Source: Sphingobacteriales bacterium 46-32 (GTDB lineage Bacteria > Bacteroidota > Bacteroidia > Chitinophagales > Chitinophagaceae). From it: 64,000 bases of DNA. The position numbers and the translations under genes are program-made. Location: positions 434,001-498,000 of the forward strand of contig MKTY01000019.1 in assembly GCA_001898485.1 (NCBI GenBank). The letters are read 5' to 3'. This document shows, one piece after another, positions 3,803 through 55,536 of this stretch; the stretch's first letter is position 1; every line of letters begins with the position of its first letter. The notes under the pieces were generated by a model, which saw nothing but the letters and a program-made list of their open reading frames with translations, made no database searches and had not been told where the DNA came from.

Positions 3803-3900
3803 GATGGTAAAGGTTTAGTGGTAAAGGAAAGCTACGCCATTTCAGGCAATGTGCTATTCCTGTCAACAATAAATATATCCGGGCAAAAGGCAGCTCCTTA

Positions 3901-5106
3901 TTAGTGCAGTGCCTGATCAAGGTCTGCGATGATATCCTGGGCCTGTTCTATGCCCACATTCATGCGGATAAGCCCATCGGTAATACCATACTGTTCGCGC
4001 AGTTCTTTGGGTACTCCGTAATGTGTCATAGAAGCGGGGTGGGAGAGAAGTGTATCGCAGGTGCCGAGTGATACGGTACGGATACACATTTTCAGTTTAT
4101 TCATAAAATCGATGCCACCCTGCAGTCCTCCTTTCAGTTCGAAGCTAAGCATGGCCCCGGGATGACGCATTTGCTTAAGCGCTACATAATGATCGGGATG
4201 GTCAGACAGGCCGGTGTAGTTTACTTTAGCTACCTGCGGATGCTGTTGCATATAGTTGGCTACTTCCATGGCATTATGACAATGCCGCTCCATGCGCAAT
4301 TCGAGGGTTTTGATGCCATTGATCAGTAAAAAAGCATCAAAACCATTGCTGTTGCCGCCAAGCAGCCGATGTACTTTCGTCACGCGTGTTTTCATGAACT
4401 CCACATCGCGACCGAGCAGTATACCGCCAATAGCAGTGCCATGGCCATTCAGAAATTTGGTGGTTGAGTGCATTACATAATCTACACCGTATTTGAATGG
4501 CTGCTGCAGGTAAGGCGTGGCGAACGTATTGTCGCAGGCAACAAGTACATTGTATTTTTTAGCAAGTTTGGTGAGTTCTTCTATATCCACACATTGAATA
4601 GTGGGATTGGCAGGTGTTTCAATATAAAGCAGCCGGATACTCTTGTCCTGTTTCAGCAGTTCTTCTGCCTGGTTAAGATCACGCAGGTCGGCAATAGTGG
4701 CCTCAATACCTAAAGGAGGCAGTACACGGTGAATCAATTCTTCGGTGCCGCCATAAAGGGAGAAGTGGGTAAGTATACGGTCGCCGCTTTTAAGGGTACT
4801 CAGCATGAGCGTACTGATAGCTGCCATACCGGAGGCGTGTAGTATGCCCTTTACTTCCAGGTCGAGACCCAGTGTTTCCAGTGCAGCAATTTTTTCCTCT
4901 GCTTCTGTCATGGTAGGGTTACCCCAGCGGCTGTAGATAAAACCTTCTTCCTGACCGCTAAACCGGCGCATGCCCTGCTCAGCTGTATCGAATACATAGG
5001 TACTGCTGGCATAAATAGGTACCAGGTGAGCATAGTTGGGGTCCTGATGGTGACCACTGTGTACGGCATGAGAACTGAAGCCGCTATAAATTTTTTTTTC
5101 TGCCAT
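3901..5106 (-). CDS. Cys/Met metabolism PLP-dependent enzyme (cystathionine gamma-synthase/lyase family)
   Basis: A 401-residue fold-type I PLP enzyme of trans-sulfuration. YSR (58-60) and the cofactor lysine K217 in STTKFLNGHG are intact, with SGMAAIST at residues 92-99 binding the cofactor phosphate. Methionine gamma-lyases usually carry a Cys in the YGC segment near residue 118; here it reads LYGGT, so a cystathionine synthase/lyase or sulfhydrylase role is at least as likely as methionine gamma-lyase. The exact reaction cannot be settled by eye. It lies between fabH and the hydrolase gene on the same strand, with gaps of 78 and 98 bases. Confidence 0.88.
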   Translation of the reverse strand: MAEKKIYSGFSSHAVHSGHHQDPNYAHLVPIYASSTYVFDTAEQGMRRFSGQEEGFIYSRWGNPTMTEAEEKIAALETLGLDLEVKGILHASGMAAISTLMLSTLKSGDRILTHFSLYGGTEELIHRVLPPLGIEATIADLRDLNQAEELLKQDKSIRLLYIETPANPTIQCVDIEELTKLAKKYNVLVACDNTFATPYLQQPFKYGVDYVMHSTTKFLNGHGTAIGGILLGRDVEFMKTRVTKVHRLLGGNSNGFDAFLLINGIKTLELRMERHCHNAMEVANYMQQHPQVAKVNYTGLSDHPDHYVALKQMRHPGAMLSFELKGGLQGGIDFMNKLKMCIRTVSLGTCDTLLSHPASMTHYGVPKELREQYGITDGLIRMNVGIEQAQDIIADLDQALH

Positions 5107-5184
5107 GACGCTTTATTGGTTTAATAGTGTGCAGGCAGGCTGCACGGGTTATATGCAGGACAAGGCAAGGTAACAGGCAAACTG

Positions 5185-6183
5185 TCAGGAGTTATAAGCC
5201 CAGGTAATGAGTGTGGCGCCCCAGGTAAACCCGCCACCAAATGCGGCCAGTACCAGGCGATCACCCTTCTTAAGCTGGTTTTCCCACTCCCAGAGGCAAA
5301 GCGGAATAGTACCGGCAGTTGTATTGCCGTATTTCTGAATATTGATCATTACTTTTTCTTTGGGAAGACCAATACGGTTGGCTGTGGCATCAATAATGCG
5401 CAGGTTGGCCTGGTGAGGGACCAGCCAGGCGATATCATCGCCGGTGAGCTGGTTGCGCTCCAGCAGTTCAGCACTTACATCGGCCATACCTTTTACAGCA
5501 AACTTGAATACAGTTTGTCCCTCCTGATAAACATAGTGTTCGCGGTTGGCCACGGTTTCGGCAGAAGCGGGGTAAGCTGAGCCTCCGGCTTTCATCCGCA
5601 GGAACTGGCAGCCACTGCCATCACTTTTGAGGATACTGTCCTGTACACCCAGGCCTTCTGTATTTGGTTCAAGCAAAACAGCACCGCCTCCATCGCCGAA
5701 TATGATGCAGGTAGTACGGTCGGTATAATCAATAATCGAACTCATTTTATCGGCACCCGCCACGACTACTTTTTTGTAACGGCCGCTTTCTATAAGTGCA
5801 GCTCCCTGGGTGAGTGCGTATAAAAAACCTGAGCAGGCAGCTGATACATCATAGCTCCAGGCATTTTTGGCACCGACCTTATCGCATACAAGATTGGCAG
5901 TAGCCGGGAAAACCATATCCGGAGTAACGGTAGCGACAATCAGGCAATCGATTTCGAGGGGATCAATGCCTCGCTTCTCACACAGTAGCTTAACTGCCGG
6001 GGCAACCAGTTCGGATGTGCCTTTGCCTTCGCCTTTTAGAATTCTTCGCTCTTCAATACCTGTGCGGCTGCGTATCCACTCATCTGTTGTATCTACAATT
6101 TTTTCAAGGTCAAAGTTGGTAAGGCGGTCTTCAGGAACATAGCCACCAACAGCAGTAATGGCGGCAGTTATTTTACTACTCAT
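5185..6183 (-). CDS. fabH: 3-oxoacyl-ACP synthase III
   Basis: Condenses an acyl-CoA primer with malonyl-ACP to start fatty acid synthesis. The catalytic triad is visible: Cys117 in SAACSGF, His257 in [10 protein letters not shown] and Asn287 in [21 protein letters not shown] is also typical. The open frame could begin at a GTG at 6201, but ATG at 6183 ([10 protein letters not shown]) gives 332 residues and the standard N-terminus, so it is preferred. The gene is divergent from ruvA. A TACCTTTG promoter box lies about 31 bases upstream. Confidence 0.95.
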
Positions 6184-6214
6184 CTTAAGATTGGTTTTCA
6201 CTACAAAAAGTGAG

Positions 6215-6222
6215 CAAAGGTA
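6215..6222 (-). promoter_or_regulatory. Possible -7 promoter box for fabH
   Basis: Read on the minus strand this is TACCTTTG, an exact match to the Bacteroidota -7 element TAnnTTTG. It would give a leader of about 25 bases before the ATG at 6183. No good TTG box was seen at the expected spacing upstream, so confidence is limited. Confidence 0.45.
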
Positions 6223-6380
6223 AAGGGGTTTTGGGAAAATGCGGGGCTATAAGTTTTGGATGAGGCTTAGGGTTAAGGGTAGAAGGTCAAAGGGAAAATC
6301 CTTGTCTTGTCTGTTTATTATTTTCTGACTGGTTCCTTTACCTTCTGGCTTTGGCCTTTCACCTTTCCCCCTGTTTCTCT

Positions 6381-6388
6381 TATTTTCG
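6381..6388 (+). promoter_or_regulatory. Possible -7 promoter box abutting the ruvA start
   Basis: TATTTTCG matches TAnnTTTG at seven of eight bases and lies only four bases before the ruvA ATG, so the transcript would begin at or very near the start codon. The upstream region, 6241-6380, is rich in GAAGGT/ACCTTC words in loose inverted symmetry, and no clear TTG box was found at the usual distance. Confidence 0.35.
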
Positions 6389-6392
6389 CGGC

Positions 6393-6974
6393 ATGATAGC
6401 CTATCTGAAAGGAGATTTTGTTTATAAAAGTCCTGCACTGGTGCTGGTAGAAGTCAATGGAGTAGGATATGAGGTGCAGATCAGTTTACATACCTATGCG
6501 CAGGTGCAGAACCTGGAAAAAGGCCTGTTGCATACCGTACAGATCATCCGCGAAGATGCCCACATCCTGTTTGGGTTTGCTGAACCCGCTGAAAAAGAAA
6601 TGTTTCAGCAATTGCTGAGTGTTTCTGGCATTGGCGCCTCCACTGCCAGAGTAATGCTTTCATATATGAAACCGGACGAACTGGCCCGGGCTATCGTGCA
6701 AGGCGATGTACGCAGTCTGGAAGCTATAAAAGGCATCGGTAAAAAAAGCGCCGAAAGAATTGTTCTCGAACTCAGGGATAAACTCGCAAAACATGGTCCT
6801 GAGGCAAATATTGCACCTATGAAAAACAATACTTTGCAACAAGATGCGTTAAATGCTCTGACAGCACTGGGGATTAACCGGACAGCAGCAGAACAGGCCC
6901 TTAAAAAGGCACTGACAGCCGAGGCCGGACTCCCGGTAGAAGAGTTGATTAAGAGAGCACTCCGTATCCTCTGA
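6393..6974 (+). CDS. ruvA: Holliday junction branch migration protein RuvA
   Basis: Binds Holliday junctions as a tetramer and loads the RuvB motor. The 193-residue product begins MIAYLKGDFVYKSP, the usual RuvA N-terminus. The middle holds two helix-hairpin-helix DNA-binding motifs, LLSVSGIGASTARVML and IKGIGKKSAERIVLELRDKL, and the C-terminal small domain that contacts RuvB begins around LQQDALNALTALG. The open frame extends 14 codons upstream, but ATG at 6393 matches the family. No ruvB or ruvC is in view. sprA follows after 40 bases, a pairing I have seen described in Bacteroidota, so the two may share a transcript. Confidence 0.96.
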   Translation: MIAYLKGDFVYKSPALVLVEVNGVGYEVQISLHTYAQVQNLEKGLLHTVQIIREDAHILFGFAEPAEKEMFQQLLSVSGIGASTARVMLSYMKPDELARAIVQGDVRSLEAIKGIGKKSAERIVLELRDKLAKHGPEANIAPMKNNTLQQDALNALTALGINRTAAEQALKKALTAEAGLPVEELIKRALRIL

Positions 6975-7014
6975 TTGCCATTTATTTCTGGAACTAATTG
7001 ATCCTGAGAACATT

Positions 7015-10000
7015 TTGAATCGCACGACTGCTCATATCTCCCGTTTGGCGGTAGTTATCGTCCTTCTATGCTTTGCCTGGACCGGTAATGCCCGTAATTA
7101 CAGGGATACTATTTTTAAGGGGAATCACGTAGATACCATCCCTGCCGATAGTCTGCGTTATCCCATCAGGGATCGTTATGGCGACCCCTATAGTCAGCCC
7201 AACCGCAACACTTTTGACCTGAAGGATACCGCATTTATCAAAAGAAATGTGGAATACGATCCGGTTACCGGCGAATATTATATCACCGAAAAGATTGGTA
7301 ATAAATATTACCGCACTCCCGTATCATTCCGGCGCGATGAGTTTATCCGGATGCAGGGGCAGAAAGATGAAGCGGAATATTTCCGTAAACGCTCAGCCCT
7401 GCTTACGGATATGAACCGTCGCCTTTTTAAGCCCCAGTTCAAAACCAGCAATAGCTGGTTTAACCGCATTGTAGGGGTAGGTAAGGTCGATATCCGCCCC
7501 TCGGGTTTTGTGGACCTTTCGGCCGGCTACCAGGGACAAAATATCAAGAACCCTACTTTACCCGAACGCGCACGCCGGTTTGGTGGTCTTGACTTTAACA
7601 TGAACTCGCAGCTGCAGGTAGATGCCAGCATTGGCGATAAACTGCGTCTTCCCATTAACTATAATACCCTGGCCAATTTTGAGTTTGAGAACCAACTCAA
7701 CCTCAATTACGTGGGCAAGGATGATGAGATCGTCAAGCAATTTCAACTGGGTAATGTCAACTTCACTACCAAGAGTACTTATATCCCCAGCGCTCAGTCG
7801 TTGTTTGGTGTAAAGACTCAATTGCAGTTTGGTAAACTCTTCGTGACAGGTGTGCTGGCCAATCAACGGGCACAGCGCCAGAACCTGGGGCTGCAGGGCG
7901 GAACGGCTACGCAGAACTTCTCACTCAAAGCTGACGAATACGAGGAAAACCGCCACTTCCTGATGGCGCAATACTTCCGCGGCAAATATAATCAGGCAAT
8001 GAGTCAGCTGCCGGTTGTGAATTCAACCATCCAGATATTGCGCGTGGAAGCATGGGTTACTAACCGTACCGGTGCTACTACCGATACCCGTGATGTGGTG
8101 GGATTGATGGATCTGGGTGAAGGTGCACCCTTTGGTCCATGGGGTGGGAACGCCAATGCTTTGCCCGACAACAGAGCCAATAACCTGTATAATTTATTAA
8201 CAGGACCTGGCGGCACCCGCAACTCCAGCTCTATTCAGTCATTCCTGACCAGCAACGGTCTTACTCCGGTGCAGGATTTTGAAAAGACTTTTGCCCGCAA
8301 ACTGCTGCCTACTGATTTTTACTTCAATCCGCAGATAGGTTTTATTTCACTCAACCAGCCATTGCAGCCTGATGAGGTGCTTGGCATCGCTTTTCAGTAT
8401 ACCTACAATGGACGTGTATACCAGGTAGGTGAATTTTCGCAGGATGTGCCTCCCGATACTTCGGGAGCTACACAGCGGGTACTTTTTCTGAAGTTGCTGA
8501 AGGCAACATCGCAGCGTACGTATCTTCCTATCTGGGATCTGATGATGAAAAACGTGTATTCGGTTGGTTATGGCCAGCTGGACCGTACCGATTTTCAACT
8601 GGATGTATTATATGAAGAACCCAGCCTGGGCGAAAAACGTTATTTGCCTCCAACAGATGTATTGCCCCAGTACGAAGGCCAGCCAATCATTTCATTATTA
8701 AACCTTGACCGGTTAAATAATCAGAATGATCCGCAACCCGATGGTAAGTTTGACTTCGTGGAAGGATATACTGTGATCTCAAGCATGAGTCGCATCATCT
8801 TCCCGGTACTGGAACCTTTCGGACGAGATCTGGAATATATCTATCCCTCTGCGGTGGAACGACAGAAATACCTCTATTATCCGCTCTACGATACTATCAA
8901 AGCCATCGCACAAACCTATGCCAACCTAAACCGGTTTAAACTCAAGGGCCGCTCGCGCAGCAGTTCTACCGGTGGCGGACGTTATCAGTTAGGATTTAAT
9001 GTGCCGAAAGAATCGGTAACAGTTACGGCCGGAGGCCAAACGCTTATTGCGGATGTTGACTATATTATAGAGGCCGGAGAAATACAGATTATCAACCAGG
9101 CCATCCTTAGTTCCGGAGTACCGGTAAATGTGAGTTATGAAAACCAGGAAGCATTCGGTATACAGCAACGCAACTTTATGGGATTGCGGCTGGATTATAT
9201 TGCCAGTAAAAAATTGACCCTTGGCGGTACAATAGCCCGCCTGGGTGAGCGACCATTCTTCATCAAACAACAATATGGTGAAGACCCCGTACGTAACACT
9301 ATGTACGGATTGGATATGGATTACCGGAGCGACTGGCCACGACTTACCAAATGGCTCGATAAACTGCCGTTCTACAACACCAAGACCATGTCGTCGATTA
9401 CGGCTTATGCCGAGGCGGCGGTATTGCAGCCTGGCCACGCACCCCAGATCGGCCGTGGATCCAGTGGCCTTGCTTATATTGACGACTTTGAAGGTACACG
9501 CTCGGCAATTGATCTCCGTTTTCCGCTCATCAACTGGACACTGGCTTCTGTACCTCAACGCTTCCCCGAAGCCACGCTCAATAATGACTTGGCCAGCGGT
9601 TACAACCGGGCTAAACTGGCCTGGTATAATATTGAACCTGTATTGCAGGAAAAAAGTAATACCAATAACCCATTGCGTGGAAATATAGCAGAGCTATCAA
9701 AACCTGAAACAAGACAGGTATTGCAGCGTGAAATCTTCCCGCAGCGTACAACCGATTTTGGTCAGGGATTACTCACCACATTTGATATGGCTTTTTATCC
9801 GCGCGATAAAGGCCCCTATAATTTTGAGAACCGCGCAGGTCGTATCGATGGCAACGGTCATCTCATTGATCGCCGCAGAGCCTGGGGTGGTATTATGCGT
9901 AATATCGACCAGATCGATTTTGAGACCGGCAATATGGAATATATCGAGTTCTGGTTGCAGGATCCCTTTATCACCAATCCTGGCAGTACGGGCGGTAAAC

Positions 10001-41389: not shown

Positions 41390-44300
41390 ATGAAAAAACT
41401 GTTGCTGCTATTATTGGTGACCATGTTTTGGCGCCAGGGACTCGCTCAAACCGGGAACCTTACAGACTGGGCCGAACTGGAGAAGCAGGTTAAGGAAAGG
41501 CGTTTGTTGGATCAGGCAGCATCACAGCTGGATAGCATTTTTTTCATGGCTTATCGGGCAAAAGATTATTTGGCAACTGCCCGTGCGGGCTTTCTGCGAA
41601 TGCAGATAAAAGATCTTCGCACAGAGGATACACTTTTCTTTATTAACCAATCAACATTTGATAGCCTTATCAGCGATCCGAAAACACCGGTACAGTTACA
41701 GTTTTGTATTCATTTGATACTGGCCAAAAGGCTGGAAACTTTCAATACAATATATAAGAAATTTCCTGTCAGCCGCTATCGGGTTAAAGAGTATCAATCT
41801 CCCTATCCTTATCTGGATAAGCAGCAAACAGACAGTCTGATAGAAGATCATTATGAGCGGGCACTGCAACTTGCGCCAATCATGGGGGCATATCCGGTTA
41901 TTGCCGGGTTATGGCTGAGTAATAACCCCGCTCAATTTCTGGTCAAACCCATTTGGGGAGATATCGTGTTGTCGAACCAGGCATCTTATTTGTCTCGAAC
42001 CGGAATCAATAGTAGGGAGTTGTTTGGTGAACAAAACGATTGGATTGATTGGACACCACAACAAATGGCGGAGCAAATAGATAGCCTTATCAAAAAAAAA
42101 GCTGAAGGTGCTGCAGCATTTTCCATATACAGAAGATGGTTGCGGTTACATGGCGAAGCAGCAGAGCCTTCAGCATATATCAATTTGTTGCTAAAGCAGG
42201 CAATGTTTTATGAGCAGGAGTATTTGGGAGGTAAATCGCTTCGGAATAGGTATATAAGTTTTCTGAAAACTGAACTTCAAAATGAAGAAGTGGGTGTAAG
42301 GGCATATGCTTTGTACCATATTTTTTATTTACTCGTAAAAGCGGGCAACCTTTATGCACCTGGTGAACGTAATTATTATGCCTCATATTCTGCAGATACG
42401 CAGGGAAGGGAGTTTATTCCGGCATATCGTTATCTGATAGACAGCGCGGTTGCAATGGTAGATAAGCAGGAGGCTTTGTTAGATAGTTTTCCGTTGGTTA
42501 AAAACCTGTTGAAAAAAGCTGTGACGGCAACTAAAGTATCTCAAGCAGAGATAAGGTTACAGCAATATCAATTACCGGGAAAATCCATTTTGTGCGAAGT
42601 CCGATTTAGGAATGTAGATTCTATGCGATTGAAAATTTGGAAAGCGCCATATTATGCTGAACATTCATCTGTTAACGATACGCTGCTGAAAAGATGCCTC
42701 TTGATTCAAAGCCGGGACATGAAATTGCCGGCGGCAAATGATCTGAATGAACATATTACTTATATAAATCTGGCAGGATTAAGTACTGGAAAATATATAC
42801 TTGAATATTGGGAAAATAATGCTACTGAAACAAAGAGTAAGGCATATATAGTGTTTACGGTTACGACGCTGACGGTCACGGTTGCCGATGATTGGCTCCT
42901 GGTATTTGATAAAATTACCGGTCGGCCGGTCAGGGATGCTATTGTGTTATCTCTGGGACGATTACAGGGGACAACGGAAAGGGGGCCATCCATGTCCGGA
43001 AAATCGTATAAAACAAACGGGAAAGGGGTTGTTCAAATAAATGATAAAGACTTCCCGAATTTATTGATTATACGTGGTAATGATTCGGTAATTGTGAGCA
43101 TGGGAAGCCATAGCGATTACCTTACTCCTGATATCTACGATAAGGAAGAGTATGATAATTTGACTGAGTATTACTATGAAAATACGGAGGTGTTTTTTTA
43201 TACAGATAGAAGTATTTACAGGCCTGGTCAAATAGTGCAGTATAAAGCGTTTTTCTTTACTCGGAATCCTAAGACGGGCGAGTATTTGCTGTTAACAGCC
43301 AAAAATCTACGGAAAGGAGCGTTTAAGAATTATTTGAAAAAACTTCTTAAAGAAGAAGACCCATTTCTGTATTTGGAAGACGCACACGGACATGATATTG
43401 ACTCTGTTCGTATTTCTCCCGATGAATGGGGGGCGATGAGTGGAAAGTTTCATTTGCCAGTCACTGCAGCTACGGGTGAATGGAGTTTCTATACAGACTT
43501 TTTTAATGATAAAACAAATACATTTCTGGTAGAGGAGTATAAACGACCAGGATTTGAAGTAAAGCTCATAAATCCCCGTCAGGAATTATTGCCTGGAATG
43601 CCTTTTGAGTTTAAAATCGAAGCAACCGGCTATTCAGGAGTACCGATGGCGGGAATAAAGCTCATTTGTAATCTACGGAGTGGGGGTAAGGGGCAGATAA
43701 AGAGTAGTGGCGAATTTATTGATGTTCCTGAATACAGGGACAGCCTGGTTGTTTTTACAAATGCAAAGGGGCAGGCAAAGATTTACGTAAATGATAGTCT
43801 GGCAAAACAGATTTTGAATCAGGAATTGGATATGCTGGACATTAATTATAGGCTTTGGGTACGGGCCGTAACACCTGGAGGTGAAGTACAGGATGAGAGA
43901 ACAGGTTTTGGAGTAACGCTTCATCCTGTTTCGGTTAAATGGATGGGCGAACAAATATGGGATGGAAATAAAGAAAGAACCATAAAATGGCAATTTAACC
44001 ATTCTATTGCTGGTATTTTGAGCAGACCTGCCCGGATTATAATCAGATCAGCAAACCCAGGTATTCATCCCAAAAGTAATTTATTCTTTCCCGCAGATCT
44101 TTCTGATGACACGACGCTACTGCGTGATGTAACAGTCTCTTTAAGTAAAGAAGACACCAATGCTATTTTGCTGGATACCTTATTGCCTGCTACGGCCTCT
44201 TCGTTCACATTGCCATTTAATTTACGGACGGGTCATTATACCATAAATATCTCTGCAATACAGGACAGACGTAGTATTGGAGAAATTGAAAAAAAAGTGA

Positions 44301-47300
44301 CTGTTTTTGAGGACGGCGATAAGGGGCTGGGTGGTTTTGATCTTTTTCATATAGCTCCCCGCCTATATAAGTCAGGCGACACCGTCGCAATTGTTATCAA
44401 TAATGCTGAAAGCGACCAGGCATTATTACTTAGGATTATCTACCGGGATAAAAAACGACGAAATCAGACGATCAATGAATTCTATGCATTGTCAGGCGGT
44501 TATGGAGTTCGGGTATTTAAATGGAAAATCCCCGCAGGAGTGGAATCGGAGGCTCTGATACAAAAATTTAGTCTTGAAGATGGGGTATTATCGGGTATGG
44601 AGAAAAGAATTTCTGTTTATGGCGGACAGGACAATCGTATTGATATTAAAGTGGATAGATTCAGGAAATTATTACAACCCGGTGCAAAGGAAGAATGGAA
44701 CGTGCAGTTGACTGCGAACGGAAAACCCGCATCAGGTCAGCTAATGACGGTGCTATATGATGCCAGTCTTGATAAATTGAATGAACACAATTGGCAGCCA
44801 CCTTCTATCGATAAGGTAAAACGATTATACAGCGATTTTAGAGCGAGCGATAATAATCTGGTTTCGGGGCGCTTAACATTTTATAAAAAATACCTGCGAG
44901 GCGCTGTAAAATCTGAGAAAAGCAGTATGCTTCCTTTCTGGTGGATGGCTTCTATCCCAGATCAGGATTCAGTACAGAATCTCTTTTCAATTGAAATTTC
45001 AGATCCATATAGCATTTCACAACAGCTGGTATTTTCCGAAGAAATCTTTTTAGCAGGTGGTTGGGTCCCTCGACAATTATTAGGCAGAGTGTCTGGTGTG
45101 CAGGTTACAGGGACAAATGATCTCAGTGAACTTGTTGTAACTGGACTTAGTGTCAGTCGGAAAGCGGTAACATCTGCTATGTCTATAATACAAGGTACAG
45201 TTATTTCGCTTAGTAGTTACGCTCAACCACTTGTCATTTTGGATGGAGTTCCGTTTACAGGAAACCTTGATTCCTTAAACAGAGTTGCATCTGTTCAGGG
45301 ATTACTGGTGGGGCCGGGCAAGGGTGATGCATTATTTGGGGCTAGTGGGAGCAAGGGTGTGTTAATTTTAAGTACAAAAGGGCCGATAGTGTTGCCAGAG
45401 CCTACTGTTATCCAGCCTGAGGTTGTAGCTAATATGTTAGCTGTCCGGAAAAATTTTAGAGAGACGGGTTTCTTTATGTCAGCGCTTGTTTCGGATAAAA
45501 AAGGGATGATTAACATACCGTTTGAGATGCCGGAAAGTCTTACCCGCTGGAACTGGAAAATGCTGGCTCATGACAAGAAGCTGAGATTCGGATACGGGGA
45601 GGAAAAAGTTTACACTTCACTTCCGTTGATGATACAGCCCCATTTACCGGCATATATACATGCTGGCGATAGTATTTGGATGTCGGCGCGGGTTACAAGC
45701 CTGGATTCTTTTCCGTCTAAAGCAACTGTACGTATCATGCTGGAAGATCCGGTAACCGGACAATCGCTGAATAATATGCTGAAACAAGCGGACACATTAC
45801 AACTGTACCTGGATGCAGGTGGATCAGCAACAGCAGGATTTTGGATAAAAGACCCAGCCAATGGGGCTACCCGTTTTATAGTTAAGATGTATGCAGGGAC
45901 CGCATCATTTACTGACGGAGAACAACATGAAATAGTCATTTTACCACGTTATCAGCTACGCCAGATTTCTGAAGACAGGCGTCTGCTGGCTTCAGAAGGA
46001 CAGGTATTGTTGCCTTTTCCGGAAAAATTGAAACCTTTTGGCGCCAGTTTTACAGTACCCGTGCAACCCGTTTCTGCATTGTTGAAACACCTGCGGTATC
46101 TTTCGACCTACCCATTTGATTGTGCTGAGCAGTTGAGCAATAAGTTGTTGGGCGATTTAATCGCAATACATTCTGTAAAAAGCAATAAAACAGTTCAGGC
46201 ATCTTATGCCAGAGCCACCTCTCAAATAATGACAGACGGAAAAGCGATTCAGCAGGCAGATGTTTTGTGGTCGGGGACAACTCCCTGGCTTGACGCCCGG
46301 GAAAAAAATCTAACAGAACAAAGAGAAACATTTGCACTGCTTGATAGTAATCGGGCGTTAAATCGTATCACGGCCAATTGGAAGAAATTGCAGGCATTAC
46401 AAGTAAATACGGGTGGTTTAAGCTGGTTTCCCGATATGCCTGCCGATTATCATATTTCAGTATATGTGGCCGGTGTGCTAGCACGTATGATACGCGACTC
46501 CTTACTGGTACCTGGTATGATCAATAGCCTGGATGTTCAGCAATTTACCCAGAAGCTGAGCAATTATATTGTTTATGATCGTGCGGCAGAGGAATACATA
46601 CGTAATACTAAAGGTTTTTTGAATGTGATATATGTACTATCGCAACTTGGCACAGTTTCTAAAACCGACTCGTTGCAGGCATCGTGGCGTGAAAGGATAA
46701 TCCGTATCTGGCCTGACGCTTATAAATTACCACTGCCTCAACAGGCAAGGTTGATAGCGGCTACTCTACGTCTTCCCGCTATGGATCATCTGTTGCCGAC
46801 GGCCGATAGTTTATTAAAATCCATCATGCAGTTGGCTATAACAGACGATAAAGGAATGCGCTGGAAGGATATTGCAAATAATACCGGGATGAGCGAGTCG
46901 GCTGAAGAACTATTATATCTGCTGAATGATGCTATCTCCATCCGCGGTTCATTCGCTAATGAAAGAAGGCAGATTGCCCGATGGATACTGCAGACACGTG
47001 AAGGAGAAATCTGGAGTAGTACTATGGCCGTATCAGCTGCTGCTTCTTTATTGCAACTTAATGGCGATGCGTTGATAATGCCATCGCAAACGGCACAGGT
47101 AAGAACCAGTAGCCGGGAAATAGAGTTGACCAATGATCCGTTGCGTGGGATGAGCACGGGCTATTTTCCGCTTGCAGGCCTACAGACACAGATAAAAGTA
47201 GAAGCAAAAAGTGACTCTCCCGTGTCGCTTACGACTACCTGGCACTATTGTGATAGCACGGGGGAAGGGTGGGGAGATAAAGGAGTAACACTTCAGAAAA

Positions 47301-47698
47301 AGTATATGATAAAGCATCAGGGTCAGGGAGAGTGGAAAACCTGGACTTATGGACAGGCGTTGCAGACAGGAGATGAGTTAAATGTCAGATTACTGATAGG
47401 AACGGACAGGGAATTGAGATATGTAGTGATAGAAGATGAGCGGGCGGCAGCATTTTCTCCAGTGGATGTGTATAGCGGCCAGGAATATGGAACCCGTTTC
47501 AGTGCGTATAAAACGATACGGGACGCTACTACGCAGTTTTTTGTCGCATCCATGCCTGAAGGATCATCTTACATAGACTATACGGTGAAGGTCGAACATA
47601 CAGGTTTATTTAAAGACGGAGCGGCAATATTACGTTGTCTTTATGAACCTTCCGTAGGGGCCGGATCGGGTAGTGGAAATGTGTATGTAGAAAAATAG
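41390..47698 (+). CDS. Alpha-2-macroglobulin family protein with internal TonB-plug-like segment
   Basis: A 2102-residue exported protein; signal peptide MKKLLLLLLVTMFWRQGLAQ. A long helical N-terminal part is followed by an MG2 domain near residue 604 (YTDRSIYRPGQIVQYKAFFF), further macroglobulin domains, the A2M domain near 1380 (TRWNWKMLAHDKK) and the thioester motif C1578-A-E-Q1581, after which comes the alpha-helical TED part. Such proteins trap proteases in the periplasm. Between the middle domains and the A2M domain, residues about 1235-1335 read like a SusC plug: SELVVTGLSVSRK, then PLVILDGVPF and LLVGPGKGDALFGASGSKG. The gene looks richer in A and T, especially at third codon positions, than its neighbours. 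No penicillin-binding protein partner is adjacent. It stands alone before the convergent queE. Confidence 0.85.
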   Translation: MKKLLLLLLVTMFWRQGLAQTGNLTDWAELEKQVKERRLLDQAASQLDSIFFMAYRAKDYLATARAGFLRMQIKDLRTEDTLFFINQSTFDSLISDPKTPVQLQFCIHLILAKRLETFNTIYKKFPVSRYRVKEYQSPYPYLDKQQTDSLIEDHYERALQLAPIMGAYPVIAGLWLSNNPAQFLVKPIWGDIVLSNQASYLSRTGINSRELFGEQNDWIDWTPQQMAEQIDSLIKKKAEGAAAFSIYRRWLRLHGEAAEPSAYINLLLKQAMFYEQEYLGGKSLRNRYISFLKTELQNEEVGVRAYALYHIFYLLVKAGNLYAPGERNYYASYSADTQGREFIPAYRYLIDSAVAMVDKQEALLDSFPLVKNLLKKAVTATKVSQAEIRLQQYQLPGKSILCEVRFRNVDSMRLKIWKAPYYAEHSSVNDTLLKRCLLIQSRDMKLPAANDLNEHITYINLAGLSTGKYILEYWENNATETKSKAYIVFTVTTLTVTVADDWLLVFDKITGRPVRDAIVLSLGRLQGTTERGPSMSGKSYKTNGKGVVQINDKDFPNLLIIRGNDSVIVSMGSHSDYLTPDIYDKEEYDNLTEYYYENTEVFFYTDRSIYRPGQIVQYKAFFFTRNPKTGEYLLLTAKNLRKGAFKNYLKKLLKEEDPFLYLEDAHGHDIDSVRISPDEWGAMSGKFHLPVTAATGEWSFYTDFFNDKTNTFLVEEYKRPGFEVKLINPRQELLPGMPFEFKIEATGYSGVPMAGIKLICNLRSGGKGQIKSSGEFIDVPEYRDSLVVFTNAKGQAKIYVNDSLAKQILNQELDMLDINYRLWVRAVTPGGEVQDERTGFGVTLHPVSVKWMGEQIWDGNKERTIKWQFNHSIAGILSRPARIIIRSANPGIHPKSNLFFPADLSDDTTLLRDVTVSLSKEDTNAILLDTLLPATASSFTLPFNLRTGHYTINISAIQDRRSIGEIEKKVTVFEDGDKGLGGFDLFHIAPRLYKSGDTVAIVINNAESDQALLLRIIYRDKKRRNQTINEFYALSGGYGVRVFKWKIPAGVESEALIQKFSLEDGVLSGMEKRISVYGGQDNRIDIKVDRFRKLLQPGAKEEWNVQLTANGKPASGQLMTVLYDASLDKLNEHNWQPPSIDKVKRLYSDFRASDNNLVSGRLTFYKKYLRGAVKSEKSSMLPFWWMASIPDQDSVQNLFSIEISDPYSISQQLVFSEEIFLAGGWVPRQLLGRVSGVQVTGTNDLSELVVTGLSVSRKAVTSAMSIIQGTVISLSSYAQPLVILDGVPFTGNLDSLNRVASVQGLLVGPGKGDALFGASGSKGVLILSTKGPIVLPEPTVIQPEVVANMLAVRKNFRETGFFMSALVSDKKGMINIPFEMPESLTRWNWKMLAHDKKLRFGYGEEKVYTSLPLMIQPHLPAYIHAGDSIWMSARVTSLDSFPSKATVRIMLEDPVTGQSLNNMLKQADTLQLYLDAGGSATAGFWIKDPANGATRFIVKMYAGTASFTDGEQHEIVILPRYQLRQISEDRRLLASEGQVLLPFPEKLKPFGASFTVPVQPVSALLKHLRYLSTYPFDCAEQLSNKLLGDLIAIHSVKSNKTVQASYARATSQIMTDGKAIQQADVLWSGTTPWLDAREKNLTEQRETFALLDSNRALNRITANWKKLQALQVNTGGLSWFPDMPADYHISVYVAGVLARMIRDSLLVPGMINSLDVQQFTQKLSNYIVYDRAAEEYIRNTKGFLNVIYVLSQLGTVSKTDSLQASWRERIIRIWPDAYKLPLPQQARLIAATLRLPAMDHLLPTADSLLKSIMQLAITDDKGMRWKDIANNTGMSESAEELLYLLNDAISIRGSFANERRQIARWILQTREGEIWSSTMAVSAAASLLQLNGDALIMPSQTAQVRTSSREIELTNDPLRGMSTGYFPLAGLQTQIKVEAKSDSPVSLTTTWHYCDSTGEGWGDKGVTLQKKYMIKHQGQGEWKTWTYGQALQTGDELNVRLLIGTDRELRYVVIEDERAAAFSPVDVYSGQEYGTRFSAYKTIRDATTQFFVASMPEGSSYIDYTVKVEHTGLFKDGAAILRCLYEPSVGAGSGSGNVYVEK

Positions 47699-49397: not shown

Positions 49398-50237
49398 ATG
49401 CGGTTGGTGATGCTTTTGTGCCGGATATTTTGGGGGCTTTTGCTCTGTGTTGTTCCTGCCAGTCTGTGGGGGCAGGGGAGGCCCCTCAGCAGCAGGTGGA
49501 TATCACTTGATGCTTATAATGACAGCCTTCTGTTGTCTGTGCCAACTGCAACAGCCAATCCGGGAGCTTTAGCCCGGCAGCAGGTGATGGCATTACATTT
49601 CACAGGCGAGCGTCGGTATATGCTGCCGGGGCTTTATCGTTTTCAGGCAGGGGGAGCTGTGCCATCCTCCGCTGGGGGCTGGGGATTTATGGCCGACCAC
49701 GAAAGATTGGAGCGCTATAGCCGGCTCTCTGCCGGGTTAGCATATGCGCGCGTTTTGTACGATGGTCTGCAATTAGGCGGTGTTTTCAATTATACCACAA
49801 TCAGCTATGCAGGTATCAGCCGGGTATCAGCAGCGAGTATGGGAATGGGAATGTTATTCCGGTTTTCGGATCATGTTCGCATTGGGTTCCATTTTCAAAA
49901 TGCAGCTGGTTTGCGATTTTCTGCCGGATCTGATCAGGTGGCAGGTACCGTGTATGCTGCTGGACTGGGATGGGATATTTCATCGCTGTTATCACTATCA
50001 GTTGAATTTGTAAAACAGGCATATGGGCCAGTTCAATTAAATGCGGGGTTGGTCTACCGGCCTGCGCAGCGGATACAGGTGCGGCTGGGTGTTTCAGATG
50101 GTGTTCAAAGTTTTTTTGCAGGAGCGGGAATGTCGTTAAAAACAATACGTTTTGAGCTGGTCAGTAATTTTCATCCGTATCTGGGCAGTAGTCCAGCTTT
50201 GCGGGTTGGGTGGGTAATCAAAAGCAAACGTTTATGA
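49398..50237 (+). CDS. Outer-membrane beta-barrel-like protein
   Basis: A 279-residue protein with a signal peptide (residues about 1-25, ending SLWGQG) and a chain of alternating hydrophobic and polar short strands ending in WVIKSKRL, as in small outer-membrane barrels. [11 protein letters not shown] early in the mature part recalls the NPA-type segment of FadL/PorV-like barrels, but I cannot assign a family. The open frame is longer by 51 codons; ATG at 49398 gives the signal peptide. It overlaps the next gene by four bases (ATGA), so the two products are probably coupled in translation and may work together. Confidence 0.65.
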
Positions 50238-52231
50238 AAGAAGTAATAACGCTGGTTGTATACCTGCTGTTGTCGGCTACTGCCATGGGGCAGGAACCTG
50301 AATTGCCCGAAGCAGATTTCGAAAACCTCACAGCATCAGCGGAAGAAGCACCGGATGATGAAGACATGCTGCTTCGGTTGGGGCAATTCAAAAAACACCC
50401 GATTGATCTGAACAGTGCAGATGCCGATGAGTTGAAAGAACTCGGATGGGTTACAGAACGCATGATTCATTCGCTGTTAGCATATCGTGATCTGCTGGGG
50501 CCGCTTATTCATGTAAATGAATTGCTGGCAGTACCTGGTTGGGAGCCTGGTATTATACGGAAAGTACTACCCTATGTGCAGGTGGTTACTGAAGAAGCAT
50601 TGTTGCCTGCCGGGCAGGACGATTTTACTAAACGAAATCATGAGTTGCTGATCCGGCATTCACGTAGTGCGGAGCAGCAGGAAAAGTATGCCGGTAGTCC
50701 CGATAAGATTTTAATCCGTTACAGATTTCATTTCAGCGATAAATGGCAGGCCGGCCTTACAGCAGAAAAAGATGCCGGAGAGGCTTTTTTCAAAGGAGCG
50801 CAACGCTGGGGATTTGATTTTTATTCAGTTCATCTTTTTATTAAAAAATGGAAAAGGTTTCGAAATATTGCGTTAGGTGATTTTACTGTCAATATGGGGC
50901 AGGGGCTTATACACTGGCAGCGGCTGGCATTTGGTAAATCAACTGATATAGCTCAGATGAAACGTCAGTCGGCTGTGCTGGCACCCTATGGATCATCCGG
51001 TGAATATAATTTTCATCGCGGCATAGGTACCACAGTCGGGTTGGGGGCATTTACCATCACCGGATTTGCTTCTTTCAGAAAGTTAAGTGCAACCTTGCAG
51101 GCAGATAGTACGGCTGCAGCAAATGCTTTTTCCGCTTTCCGTACCTCCGGTTATCATCGTACAGGCAATGAAATAGCTGCGAGAAATAAACTGAAGCAAT
51201 TGGCCGGAGGAGTGGTGATTCAATACCGGAAGAAAAATTTTGCTGCAGCGCTTAACCAGGTTACACATTTCTTTTCGCTGCCACTTCAAAAAGAAGAGCG
51301 GCCATCGAATCTTTATGCTATGCGCGGCAGTAACTGGTACAACGCCAGTGTTGATTATTCCTGGGTGTTCCGGCAGGTTCACATTTTTGGAGAGGCAGCG
51401 GTTAGTAAAAGTGGTGGAACAGCTTTTTTACAAAGTATGCTTATAAGTATGGATAGCCGGGCAGATATATCACTTCAATGGAGGAGATTGTCGCCGGGCT
51501 ATCAGTCGGTGGCCGGGAGAGCGATTACAGAAAACAGTCAGCCAACCAACGAAAGGGGGTGTCTGATGGCGGTGAACCTTCGTTTATTTCCACGTTTAAA
51601 GTGGGATGGTTATGTTGATTTTTATTCCTTTCCCTGGCTTGGTTATTATACAGATGCGCCTGCCCGGGGTCGTGATTACCAGTTTACTTTACGCTATTCG
51701 CCACGTAAGCAGGTGGAGATGTATTTACGCTACCGTAATGAGGAAAAGGAAAGAAATGAAGGAGGGATAACCAACAAACTGGCAGTAAATAAAAGAAACA
51801 GCTGGCGTTTTCATATTGATTATATGATAAGTGGTACGCTAAGGCTGAGGCAGCGAATAGAGTGGGTTAAGTTCCAAAAAGACGATCAACCTGCTGCTCA
51901 GGGGTTCCTGTATTATGCCGATATAGGTTGGAAGCCGAAGGGCCGGGCGTCTTTATCGGTACGCTGGCAGGTATTTGATACAGACGATTATGACACACGA
52001 CTGTATGCTTTTGAGCAGGATGTGTCGTATAGTTATTCATTACCAGCATCTTATGGAAAAGGGTATCGGTATATAGTGCTGGCAAAATATGTTATCAGCA
52101 GACATTTATCGGCCTGGGTGCGCTGGTCAAATACCGGCAATACAGGGCTGGCAGGGGAAGAGCCCGTTTACGCAAACGATAGCGTTGTCAAAAGTTCGGA
52201 TATCCGGTTGCAATTGATGCTGGATTTTTAA
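50234..52231 (+). CDS. Outer-membrane barrel protein with N-terminal helix-hairpin-helix
   Basis: A 665-residue exported protein. After the signal peptide (1-19) and an acidic linker (residues 20-48) come two helix-hairpin-helix units: IDLNSADADELKELGWVTERM (split at residue 67) and LLAVPGWEPGIIRKVLP, the same fold as the DNA receptor ComEA. From about residue 125 onward the chain is a large beta-barrel-like region with repeated aromatic-ended strands, ending in LQLMLDF. ATG at 50234 is preferred over GTG at 50210 because it gives the signal peptide and an ATGA overlap with the gene before. Binding of DNA on the periplasmic side is possible but not shown; HhH also serves other roles. Confidence 0.75.
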   Translation: MKEVITLVVYLLLSATAMGQEPELPEADFENLTASAEEAPDDEDMLLRLGQFKKHPIDLNSADADELKELGWVTERMIHSLLAYRDLLGPLIHVNELLAVPGWEPGIIRKVLPYVQVVTEEALLPAGQDDFTKRNHELLIRHSRSAEQQEKYAGSPDKILIRYRFHFSDKWQAGLTAEKDAGEAFFKGAQRWGFDFYSVHLFIKKWKRFRNIALGDFTVNMGQGLIHWQRLAFGKSTDIAQMKRQSAVLAPYGSSGEYNFHRGIGTTVGLGAFTITGFASFRKLSATLQADSTAAANAFSAFRTSGYHRTGNEIAARNKLKQLAGGVVIQYRKKNFAAALNQVTHFFSLPLQKEERPSNLYAMRGSNWYNASVDYSWVFRQVHIFGEAAVSKSGGTAFLQSMLISMDSRADISLQWRRLSPGYQSVAGRAITENSQPTNERGCLMAVNLRLFPRLKWDGYVDFYSFPWLGYYTDAPARGRDYQFTLRYSPRKQVEMYLRYRNEEKERNEGGITNKLAVNKRNSWRFHIDYMISGTLRLRQRIEWVKFQKDDQPAAQGFLYYADIGWKPKGRASLSVRWQVFDTDDYDTRLYAFEQDVSYSYSLPASYGKGYRYIVLAKYVISRHLSAWVRWSNTGNTGLAGEEPVYANDSVVKSSDIRLQLMLDF

Positions 52232-52398: not shown

Positions 52399-55300
52399 AT
52401 GAGAAAACTCGCATCACTGCTTGCAGTGCTGATGCTATTTAATGCATTAGCATTTGCACAACAACGGGAAGTCTCGGGCTCAATTAAGAGCGAAGAGGGC
52501 ACCAACATCCCATTTGCCTCAGTCACGGTTAAGGGCACTGCAACCGGTGTTTCTGCCGATGCCAATGGCAAATTTTCCATTCAGGCCGCACCCAACGCCA
52601 CACTGGTTATCAGTGCCGTTGGTTATGAGCCAAAAGAAGTTTCAGCACGTTCAACTACTATTACAGTATCACTGAAAGCTGCAGGTAACCTGCAGGAAGT
52701 AGTTGTAACCGCCCTGGGTATTTCTAAGCAAAAGAAATCGCTGGGTTATCAGATCGCTACAGTATCTCCTGAAGACTTCAACAAAGTTCGCCCAACAGAC
52801 ATCACTGCAGCTCTGGCTGGTAAAGTAGCGGGTATGCAGTTATTGGGTACTCCCAGCTCAAACTTTGGCGAGGGGCAGATTCGCTTACGCGGTATCTCCA
52901 GCCTCGGTGGTACGGACCCGATTTATGTAGTAGATGGTACTATAGTATCATTGAGCGCTATCAATCTGGACGAAGTAGAGAGCATTTCTGTTCTGAAAGG
53001 ACCTGTTGCATCAGCTCTGTATGGACTTCGCGCTCAGAATGGTGCTATTGAAGTAAAGCTGAAAAGGGGGGCAAAACGTAAGCCTGGTGTTACAGTTAAC
53101 TCTCTCACAGAGTTCGGTAATGTAGCGCTGCTGCCTAAATACCAGAATGAGTATGGTGGTGGTTATTCTCAGGACTGGCAGACTTTCACTTACAATCCTG
53201 CCATTCACCCCGCTTCATGGGCTGCATTCAACGGTCAGAAACTGGTTGAGTACGGTGCTGATGAAAGCTGGGGTCCCCGTATGGATGGTACCCTGGTTCG
53301 TGAATGGTTTAGCTGGTATCCTGGCGATGATTTTGGTAAGGAGACTCCATTCTCTCCCCATCCCAATAACGTAAAGGATTTCTACACAACTTCCAAACGT
53401 TACAATAATAGTGTGGCTTTTGAAGGTGGTGGTGACAATTCCAGTTTCCGTTTCAATTACAATAACCGCTATCAGGAACTGCCTTTCCCCAACACGCAAC
53501 GTCAGGAAAACCTGTTCTCATTCCGCGGTAACCTGAATGTTACTCCCAAACTGACTATCTCTACCAATGTAAACTATTCGGTAATTGATCAACTGGGTGA
53601 CCGTTCAGAAGGTTATACTAACGATGGTCAGAATATTACACAGAACTTCAACCAGTGGTTCCAACGCCAACTGGATATCAAGAAGCTGAGAGACTATAAA
53701 AACCCCGCCGGTGGTTATAAAACATGGAATATCCGCAGCCCAATAGATACCCGCGCTGCTTACTGGGATAACATGTACTACCAGGTATATGAGAGCTTCC
53801 GCCGCAGCTGGCAGAACCGTGTATTCGGCGATATCAACATTTCTTACAAAATTCTCCCTTACCTGACCTATACCACAATTGCCCGTGCCAGCATTCTCAA
53901 CTATGGTGGTGATGGTCGTATTGCATCTTATGGTCTGGAGATTCCCAGCTATAATATCAACAATGGTACCTTCCAGGACTATAACTTCGAAAATCGCCTG
54001 GAATTCAACAAACGTTTTGGCAACTTCGGTGTTCGTCAACTGGTCGGTTCTAACTTCATGAGACAAACACGGAAGTACAATTCTGCCAGCACAGTTGGTG
54101 GTCTTTCTGTTCCTGACCTGTACAGCATTTCTGCTAGTATCGATCGTCCATCAGTAGGCAATACCTGGCTTGATTTTCGGATGAATTCACTTTATACAAA
54201 TGGTAGCTACGATTATAAGAACTTCCTGTTCTTAGATGTTACACTGCGTAATGACTGGACATCATCATTGCTGCCTGGTAGAAAGAATACGTTCCTGTAT
54301 CCGTCAGTTTCAACCAGTTTTGTATTTACCGATGTACTGGAAACCAGTGCCAAGTTTAAAGAGATTCTCTCTTATGGTAAACTGCGTGCAGGTTATGGTA
54401 GAACTGGTACAGATCCTGGTGCATATGCCCTCAATCCTACTTATGGTCTGGGTACTCCTTATGGCAGCAACCCTACCATGTCAGTACCTACAACAGTATA
54501 TGATATTGCGATCAAGCCTTCTCTGACTAAGGAATATGAAATCGGTACAGAGTTGAAATTCCTGAAAAATCGTATTGGATTGGATTTTGCCTGGTATCGT
54601 AAAGATGGTGTGGATCAAATCGTTAATTTGGGTGTGACAAATTCATCTGGCGCTAGTTCTGTGTGGTTGAATGCAGGCCTGATTCGCAGCCAGGGCTTTG
54701 ATTTGGCGATTGATGCGAGCATCATTAAAACACGTGACTTTAGCTGGGATGTTCAATTCAACATCGCAAGAAATATTTCTAAAGTAATTGATCTGGATTC
54801 TGCGAAAGGACTTCGCAACCTGAACCAGGGTACAGCATCTTTTGGCCCCAGTGTTAACGCACGCATAGGTGAAAAATGGGGTGCTATCATCGGTACACGT
54901 CCGCTGATTGATGAAAAAACAGGTCTTCCTGTGATCACAGCTGCGGGTAACTGGGTACGTCAAACTAACCAGATTCTTGGTTATTCACTGCCTGAGTATA
55001 TGGGCGGTGCTGTAACGACTTTCCGTTATAAAAACCTGAGTTTATCCGGTACCCTGACGTTCCAAAGAGGCGGTATGTTCTACTCTACTACACGCCTGTG
55101 GAACCTGTACTCTGGTCTGAGTGCTGAAACTGTAGGCAACAACGATAAAGGAAATCCGCTGCGTGATGATCCAGCCGATGGTGGCGGTATCCGCGTAGAT
55201 GGTGTACTGGCTGACGGAACACCTAAAACAGTATACGTAGAGGCTCAGACTTACTATAGTAATATGTATGGTCTGCATACGCCATTCCTCTCCAAATCTT

Positions 55301-55536
55301 CTTTCCTGAAACTTGCAGAGCTGAAACTTGCGTATACGATCAAAGCTAATACGCTGATCAAAGGTATTAAGGACATCAACATTGCTGCAAGCTGCCGTAA
55401 TCCCTGGTTGATTTCTGCACCTGCTAAAAAATGGGGTATCGATCCTTCAGAGCTGGAAAACGCCAACTCTTATTACGAAGGTGGCCAGTTGCCGATGGTT
55501 CGTAGCTATGGTATTAACGTAACATTCGGATTCTAA
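52399..55536 (+). CDS. SusC/RagA-type TonB-dependent receptor
   Basis: A 1045-residue outer-membrane transporter. Order: signal peptide (1-20), a carboxypeptidase-regulatory-like domain (about 23-92: VSGSIKSEEGTNIPFASVTVKG), TonB box (EVVVTALG, 100-107), plug domain with IRLRGISSLGG and DPIYVVDG, then the barrel ending INVTFGF. The coding sequence has a very even, optimal-looking codon use (many GGT, CGT, CTG), as in highly expressed genes. It is followed after 26 bases by susD. No glycoside hydrolases, sigma factor or FecR-type anti-sigma gene lie nearby, so the substrate may be a peptide or a common glycan rather than a polysaccharide-locus target. The substrate cannot be told. Confidence 0.93.
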   Translation: MRKLASLLAVLMLFNALAFAQQREVSGSIKSEEGTNIPFASVTVKGTATGVSADANGKFSIQAAPNATLVISAVGYEPKEVSARSTTITVSLKAAGNLQEVVVTALGISKQKKSLGYQIATVSPEDFNKVRPTDITAALAGKVAGMQLLGTPSSNFGEGQIRLRGISSLGGTDPIYVVDGTIVSLSAINLDEVESISVLKGPVASALYGLRAQNGAIEVKLKRGAKRKPGVTVNSLTEFGNVALLPKYQNEYGGGYSQDWQTFTYNPAIHPASWAAFNGQKLVEYGADESWGPRMDGTLVREWFSWYPGDDFGKETPFSPHPNNVKDFYTTSKRYNNSVAFEGGGDNSSFRFNYNNRYQELPFPNTQRQENLFSFRGNLNVTPKLTISTNVNYSVIDQLGDRSEGYTNDGQNITQNFNQWFQRQLDIKKLRDYKNPAGGYKTWNIRSPIDTRAAYWDNMYYQVYESFRRSWQNRVFGDINISYKILPYLTYTTIARASILNYGGDGRIASYGLEIPSYNINNGTFQDYNFENRLEFNKRFGNFGVRQLVGSNFMRQTRKYNSASTVGGLSVPDLYSISASIDRPSVGNTWLDFRMNSLYTNGSYDYKNFLFLDVTLRNDWTSSLLPGRKNTFLYPSVSTSFVFTDVLETSAKFKEILSYGKLRAGYGRTGTDPGAYALNPTYGLGTPYGSNPTMSVPTTVYDIAIKPSLTKEYEIGTELKFLKNRIGLDFAWYRKDGVDQIVNLGVTNSSGASSVWLNAGLIRSQGFDLAIDASIIKTRDFSWDVQFNIARNISKVIDLDSAKGLRNLNQGTASFGPSVNARIGEKWGAIIGTRPLIDEKTGLPVITAAGNWVRQTNQILGYSLPEYMGGAVTTFRYKNLSLSGTLTFQRGGMFYSTTRLWNLYSGLSAETVGNNDKGNPLRDDPADGGGIRVDGVLADGTPKTVYVEAQTYYSNMYGLHTPFLSKSSFLKLAELKLAYTIKANTLIKGIKDINIAASCRNPWLISAPAKKWGIDPSELENANSYYEGGQLPMVRSYGINVTFGF

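Follow-up and report, generated by a model that had tools for sequence, protein, structure and literature searches.

We identified, at the bait site of an alpha-2-macroglobulin from Sphingobacteriales bacterium 46-32, a segment derived from the plug of a SusC-type TonB-dependent receptor. Judged from sequence comparison and modelling, the insert (residues ~1230-1332) is real and comprises a SusC-type Ton box and the C-terminal half of a plug, which folds. In a sister family of macroglobulins the Ton box and plug are complete and adjoin a gene for a SusC-like barrel that is missing exactly this part, and there the transporter looks like one divided between two genes. No description of a macroglobulin combined with a plug, TonB or SusC was found in the literature searched, subscription papers being outside its coverage.

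The gene lies in the window, by which we mean the whole 64,000-nucleotide stretch of DNA analysed here. The open reading frame at 41390-47698 translates into a 2102-residue alpha-2-macroglobulin, as an initial annotation made from the sequence alone had correctly reported; the stretch singled out there, 44990-45400, corresponds to residues ~1201-1337. Features shared with bacterial type I macroglobulins are MG2 and A2M (MG7), both above their Pfam cut-offs, a C-terminal bMG10 domain, and the CxEQ thioester motif (CAEQ at residue 1578). The N-terminus has a signal-peptide-like stretch, as judged by eye, and no lipobox cysteine. The protein is a thioester macroglobulin and would, in our best explanation, be periplasmic. 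It carries no beta barrel of its own as SusC/RagA proteins do, since macroglobulin domains follow the plug and a barrel match is absent; on this point the initial annotation was also right. Features, in window coordinates, are as follows.

41390..47698, + strand: alpha-2-macroglobulin, 2102 aa (ORF; MG2, A2M and bMG10 in Pfam)
43190..43495, + strand: MG2 domain, residues 601-702 (Pfam PF01835, 55 bits)
44630..44839, + strand: MG6-like macroglobulin domain preceding the insert, residues ~1081-1150, ending ...LYDASLDK (alignment with plug-less relatives; strands in the model)
44840..45085, + strand: hypervariable unfolded linker, residues 1151-1232, likely the cleavable bait (21% mean identity in the window clade; pLDDT < 50)
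45077..45106, + strand: LLGRVSGVQV, residues 1230-1239, like the SusC plug stretch LQGKVAGVxV (alignments; motif order count)
45122..45151, + strand: Ton-box-like motif LSELVVTGLS, residues 1245-1254 (alignments, hhalign; SusC Ton box defined by mutation in PMC7782687)
45185..45385, + strand: plug core, residues 1266-1332 (AlphaFold2, Foldseek to TonB receptors, hhalign)
45440..45733, + strand: MG7 / Pfam A2M, residues ~1351-1448, directly after the plug (Pfam PF00207 at 1361-1448; PDB profile search)
46121..46132, + strand: CAEQ thioester motif, residues 1578-1581 (sequence)
47282..47650, + strand: bMG10 domain, residues 1965-2087 (Pfam PF17973, 69 bits)
52399..55536, + strand: complete SusC in which NTE, Ton box, plug and barrel are all present, a comparison gene and candidate partner at most (TIGR04056 full length; plug 136 bits)

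The order of elements around the insert is thus the MG6-like domain, the linker (1151-1232), LLGRVSGVQV, the Ton box LSELVVTGLS, IIQG, LVILDG...GVLILSTKG, and MG7. Positions 50210-52231 of the window encode a protein of 673 aa that contains a helix-hairpin-helix motif like that of ComEA.

The window insert scores 13.8 bits against Pfam Plug (PF07715), below the curated cut-off of 23.9, because its plug is shortened and its motifs are reordered. Since the window member taken alone falls under this cut-off, we call it plug-derived and not a complete plug. A profile built from the SusC plugs of its own genome gives it 18.5 bits, where the best of 1000 shuffles reaches 6.4. Used as a query over the whole window genome, the insert finds itself and 27 other stretches, all of them in open frames of TonB-dependent-receptor length. 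Individually, 31 of 38 aligned relatives match Plug at E<=0.01, 17 match CarbopepD_reg_2, and all 38 match A2M. Profile-profile comparison of the macroglobulin inserts with SusC plugs (hhalign) gives 99.95% and an E-value of 9e-38. In a PDB profile search, columns 214-302 correspond to SusC plugs and the adjacent columns 303-411 to MG7 of human and other macroglobulins, which bears out the earlier placement of the segment in the bait region before the A2M domain. AlphaFold2 models residues ~1281-1328 as strand-helix-strand-helix-strand with pLDDT ~80-93 and leaves the Ton box part unfolded. The model of the whole region resembles macroglobulin structures; with the plug alone, the best 23 Foldseek matches in the PDB are all TonB receptors, their E-values being weak (best 0.05) for so short a model. 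At the level of the family, therefore, homology and fold are those of Plug. Chance likeness of an ordinary macroglobulin domain would fit the sub-threshold Pfam score of the window member alone, but it is already refuted by the shuffles, the hhalign comparison, the relatives' own Plug matches, the PDB profile, Foldseek and the genome-wide search, and we assign it practically no probability.

The window member does not contain a complete plug in the usual order. A stretch resembling LLGRVSGV stands after the Ton box in SusC, and the window's LLGRVSGVQV precedes it, according to the alignments and a count of motif order; we therefore conclude that pieces have moved and that the N-terminal half of the plug is missing. 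The description of the segment as plug-like in the initial annotation thus holds, both by score and by the full plugs of relatives at the same place, and the structure prediction proposed there returned a plug fold and not an ordinary macroglobulin domain. The segment is, however, an incomplete plug, with an N-half-like piece displaced to before the Ton box. The annotation had compared it specifically with the SusC at 52399. While the likeness to a plug is genuine, this SusC is absent from the 27 genome-wide matches and is not the closest relative of the insert. Recent copying from a susC gene of the same genome was considered and rejected: the best match is 53% (in genome G686) and those within the window genome are ~31-39%, so no recent donor is seen.

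The Ton box precedes the plug core. LSELVVTGLS is diverged (35% identity to its own clade) and passes a threshold that about 2 in 1000 shuffles pass. The corresponding VDEVVV Ton box region of SusC Bt1763 has been shown by mutation to be essential (PMC7782687). Nineteen further macroglobulins have a Ton box without a plug, where shuffled inserts give about 1 in 740, and 20 have a plug without a detectable Ton box. We infer that the Ton box of the window protein binds TonB. The earlier suggestion that the segment could contact TonB gains support of this kind, as SELVVTGLSV falls in the Ton box region and the motif recurs in some macroglobulins that lack a plug.

The seven proteins of the window clade share on average 59% identity in the Ton box, 51% in the plug fold and 55% in MG7, and 26-47% in most other domains. 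Linker 1151-1232 has a mean identity of 21%, compared with 42-55% on both flanks. Because the Ton box and plug are kept better than most of the macroglobulin, they are not a drifting bait; by these alignments the plug looks to be under constraint in this clade, and it is the hypervariable linker that resembles a free, cleavable bait. The initial annotation had also offered a protease-sensing insert as an explanation, and its position is consistent with this, but the plug is conserved in the clade and the linker is the more bait-like stretch. In Flavobacteriaceae-type relatives the N-terminal half of the plug is the fastest-changing part, as expected of bait.

The recurrence of plug inserts in homologues, which the initial annotation had thought likely, is supported by a survey of the window's family, the phylum and named carriers. 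A full Ton box and plug occur at the same site in window-type macroglobulins of other genomes and in a second family (~1940 aa), which additionally has a SusC N-terminal extension. Of 399 genomes of the window's family, 17 gave matches spanning the plug and MG7; a profile of the second family gave such matches in 12 of 396 genomes drawn from the whole phylum. Among the carriers known by name are Flavihumibacter, Mucilaginibacter, Niastella vici, Parafilimonas terrae, Polaribacter, Flavobacterium, Lutibacter and Chryseolinea. We classed 148 distinct macroglobulins, some of them chosen for having plugs, with a first SusC profile that included non-SusC ORFs and the plug-less barrel itself: 51 have a Ton box and plug, 20 a plug only, 20 a Ton box only and nine another plug motif, and in 48 there is none of these. 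Because its plug has diverged, the window member falls among those with a Ton box only. The motif excess and the split-pair coverage described below were recomputed with a clean profile of 16 SusCs, with the same result. With it, inserts lacking a plug give 27 matches to plug columns against 0.28 expected, and seven to all other SusC columns against 1.3 expected; in the subset of 28 inserts unselected in any way, plug-column matches are three against 0.08 expected, which are small numbers. As far as these profiles tell, macroglobulin inserts draw on no part of SusC other than the plug. Fragments of it stand in varied order across many plug-less members, and the reading frame is kept in every insert. 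On a tree built from the region that runs from MG7 through the thioester domain, at least 12 changes are required to explain where the plug label falls, seven of them forced by well-supported branches.

Several observations were made alongside this survey. A Bacteroidota-type plug-bearing macroglobulin (L169) stands in a record titled Williamsia sp., an actinobacterium, the title probably belonging to a mislabelled MAG. In a Flavobacterium-like genome (L138) the macroglobulin is spread over two frames, one of 688 and one of 1477 aa, and may be broken. The window genome also encodes a barrel-less protein (L164:3-821, contig C17) with a half plug near its N-terminus, adjoining a von Willebrand A-like protein.

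A third macroglobulin family, the sister family (~1500 aa), is exemplified by P0003 in L140, which has a Ton box, a complete plug, MG7 and the motif CFEQ. The gene upstream of it encodes P0004, a SusC-like protein with the N-terminal extension and a barrel but without a Plug match. This pair is present in 9/9 loci reached through the macroglobulin, with the genes 2-5 bp apart. To test the pairing from the other side, we derived a probe (A8) from the junction in the plug-less barrels and searched 299 genomes of the window's family and 396 from across the phylum. The probe recovered 15 further barrels, of which 14 have a readable next stretch, and all 14 adjoin a plug-bearing macroglobulin, in one case 1.2 kb away. 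Altogether the macroglobulin follows the barrel in 23/23 readable loci (L140, positions 2244-9655, L270-L277 and L308-L322), within 5 bp or with an overlap of <=20 bp in 19 of them, in Flavobacteriaceae-type and Chitinophagaceae-type genomes. Matches of the barrels to SusC lie in columns up to ~90 and/or from ~246 onwards, several f1 barrels being significant only near the C-terminus, and those of the macroglobulins run from ~83-100 to 241-265. CxEQ and a Ton box are found in every one of the 23 macroglobulins. From this complementarity, trap and channel appear to work as one device, and the macroglobulin most likely supplies in trans the plug that closes the barrel. This arrangement, a neighbouring SusC barrel without just the plug piece, was beyond what the initial annotation could see; the interpretation given in that annotation is, as a whole, partly supported. 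Just upstream of the pair in L140, positions 1623-2093 encode a 156-aa protein with a signal-like N-terminus and two tandem half plugs (VDGK...NGVVLITTK twice).

A comparable partner for the window protein was sought and rejected. The plug-less barrel probe, which covers SusC-type barrels, has no match in the window genome, and all 37 SusCs over the cut-off there are full length. A comparison of neighbourhoods revealed no gene, PBP1C included, common to the window-type plug macroglobulins. For these reasons we do not claim that the window protein plugs a barrel, and the missing plug-less SusC leads us to favour for it a trap docked at TonB and the outer membrane. Four genomes (G158, G229, G291 and G332) hold both a window-type plug macroglobulin and a split pair.

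The window protein resembles the type I macroglobulins E. coli YfhM/ECAM and Salmonella SaA2M in MG2, MG7, CxEQ, the MG10-like C-terminus and an insert at the bait site. Those proteins are anchored in the inner membrane as lipoproteins, their bait is short and disordered, and pbpC is often a neighbouring gene (PMC4498604, PMC5764988). In the window protein, by contrast, a lipobox is not seen, a PBP1C neighbour was not noticed, and the bait site holds a Ton box and half plug. These two elements are homologous to those of SusC/RagA (NTE, Ton box, plug, barrel), but the window protein has no barrel, lacks the N-terminal half of the plug, has reordered motifs and has macroglobulin domains on both sides. 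With the split pairs it shares a thioester and the placement of the Ton box and plug within the macroglobulin; they differ in having a complete plug in SusC order, an adjoining barrel gene and a macroglobulin of another family. Complement C3, also a thioester protein, has a folded extra domain in the equivalent position, the anaphylatoxin domain, which is unrelated to the window plug in fold and origin. The window genome also encodes three short MG2 proteins of 794-905 aa (L282:4343-6724, L283:4381-6774 and L284:6966-9680), which share with the window protein a Ton-box/plug-like stretch before an MG7-like end, as seen by eye, and differ from it in having no thioester domain. None of the three matches Pfam Plug at E<=0.1, and one adjoins DUF4249 genes and a plug-bearing receptor.

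Our best explanation, which we hold tentatively and just short of calling it probable, is that the window protein is a thioester macroglobulin of the periplasm in which a SusC-derived Ton box and half plug have taken over the bait-region segment, making it a docked trap. Its computed support is the homology to SusC plugs, the placement of the insert after the MG6-like domain and before MG7, the conservation seen within the clade, the return of the insert in several macroglobulin families and the reciprocal split in the sister family. For bait cleavage followed by thioester trapping we rely on work on E. coli and Pseudomonas macroglobulins (PMC4498604, PMC5764988). In the proposed mechanism the Ton box would bind TonB and the plug fold would dock to an outer-membrane barrel from the periplasmic side, which would place the trap at import channels; an entering protease would cut the flexible bait beside the plug and then be bound via the thioester. 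An unlikely alternative to this docked trap is that the plug-like segment is itself the bait, a decoy that plug-attacking proteases cut, springing the thioester trap with TonB uninvolved. Its location fits, since the PDB profile puts it at the bait site of human and bacterial macroglobulins (bait mechanism in PMC4498604), and so do the unfolded Ton box, the fast-changing N-half in Flavobacteriaceae-type relatives and the varied-order fragments in many plug-less members. A decoy is, however, hard to reconcile with a plug that is among the best-kept parts in the window clade beside a hypervariable linker, and it leaves unexplained why the neighbouring barrel has lost the very plug and Ton box that the macroglobulin carries in the split pairs.

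We consider it quite unlikely that the window macroglobulin acts as a trans plug closing some outer-membrane barrel of its own genome, as proposed for the sister family. The 23/23 reciprocal split pairs, with the plug at the same macroglobulin site, and the four genomes holding both types argue for it, but a plug-less SusC was not found in the window genome and the window plug is half-sized and reordered. The window plug may close a barrel, though we rate docking, whether at TonB or at an ordinary barrel, as more probable than true plugging. A neutral relic, in which pieces of numerous susC genes recombined into an unconstrained bait loop and then decayed, seems very unlikely. The scatter of the plug label on the tree, the fragments in varied order and the 37 full-length susC genes of the window genome are what such a process might leave. 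It does not account for an excess confined to plug columns when the barrel makes up most of a susC gene, for the conservation within the window clade or for the reading frame always being kept, and the one donor check gave no close donor (best 53%).

A trap with a Ton box and plug at its trigger would link a macroglobulin to outer-membrane import. We consider it a possibility, held with somewhat less assurance than the docked trap itself, that Bacteroidota have TonB-driven channels whose plug is built into the trigger site of a thioester trap, so that channel opening and trap arming would be mechanically coupled, the window protein being a diverged relative that keeps a TonB-docked trap. The split pairs would be TonB-dependent transporters whose plug is supplied by another protein, and they would make plug exchange, the action of TonB on a free plug and defence of the import gate directly testable in ordinary Flavobacteriaceae and Chitinophagaceae.
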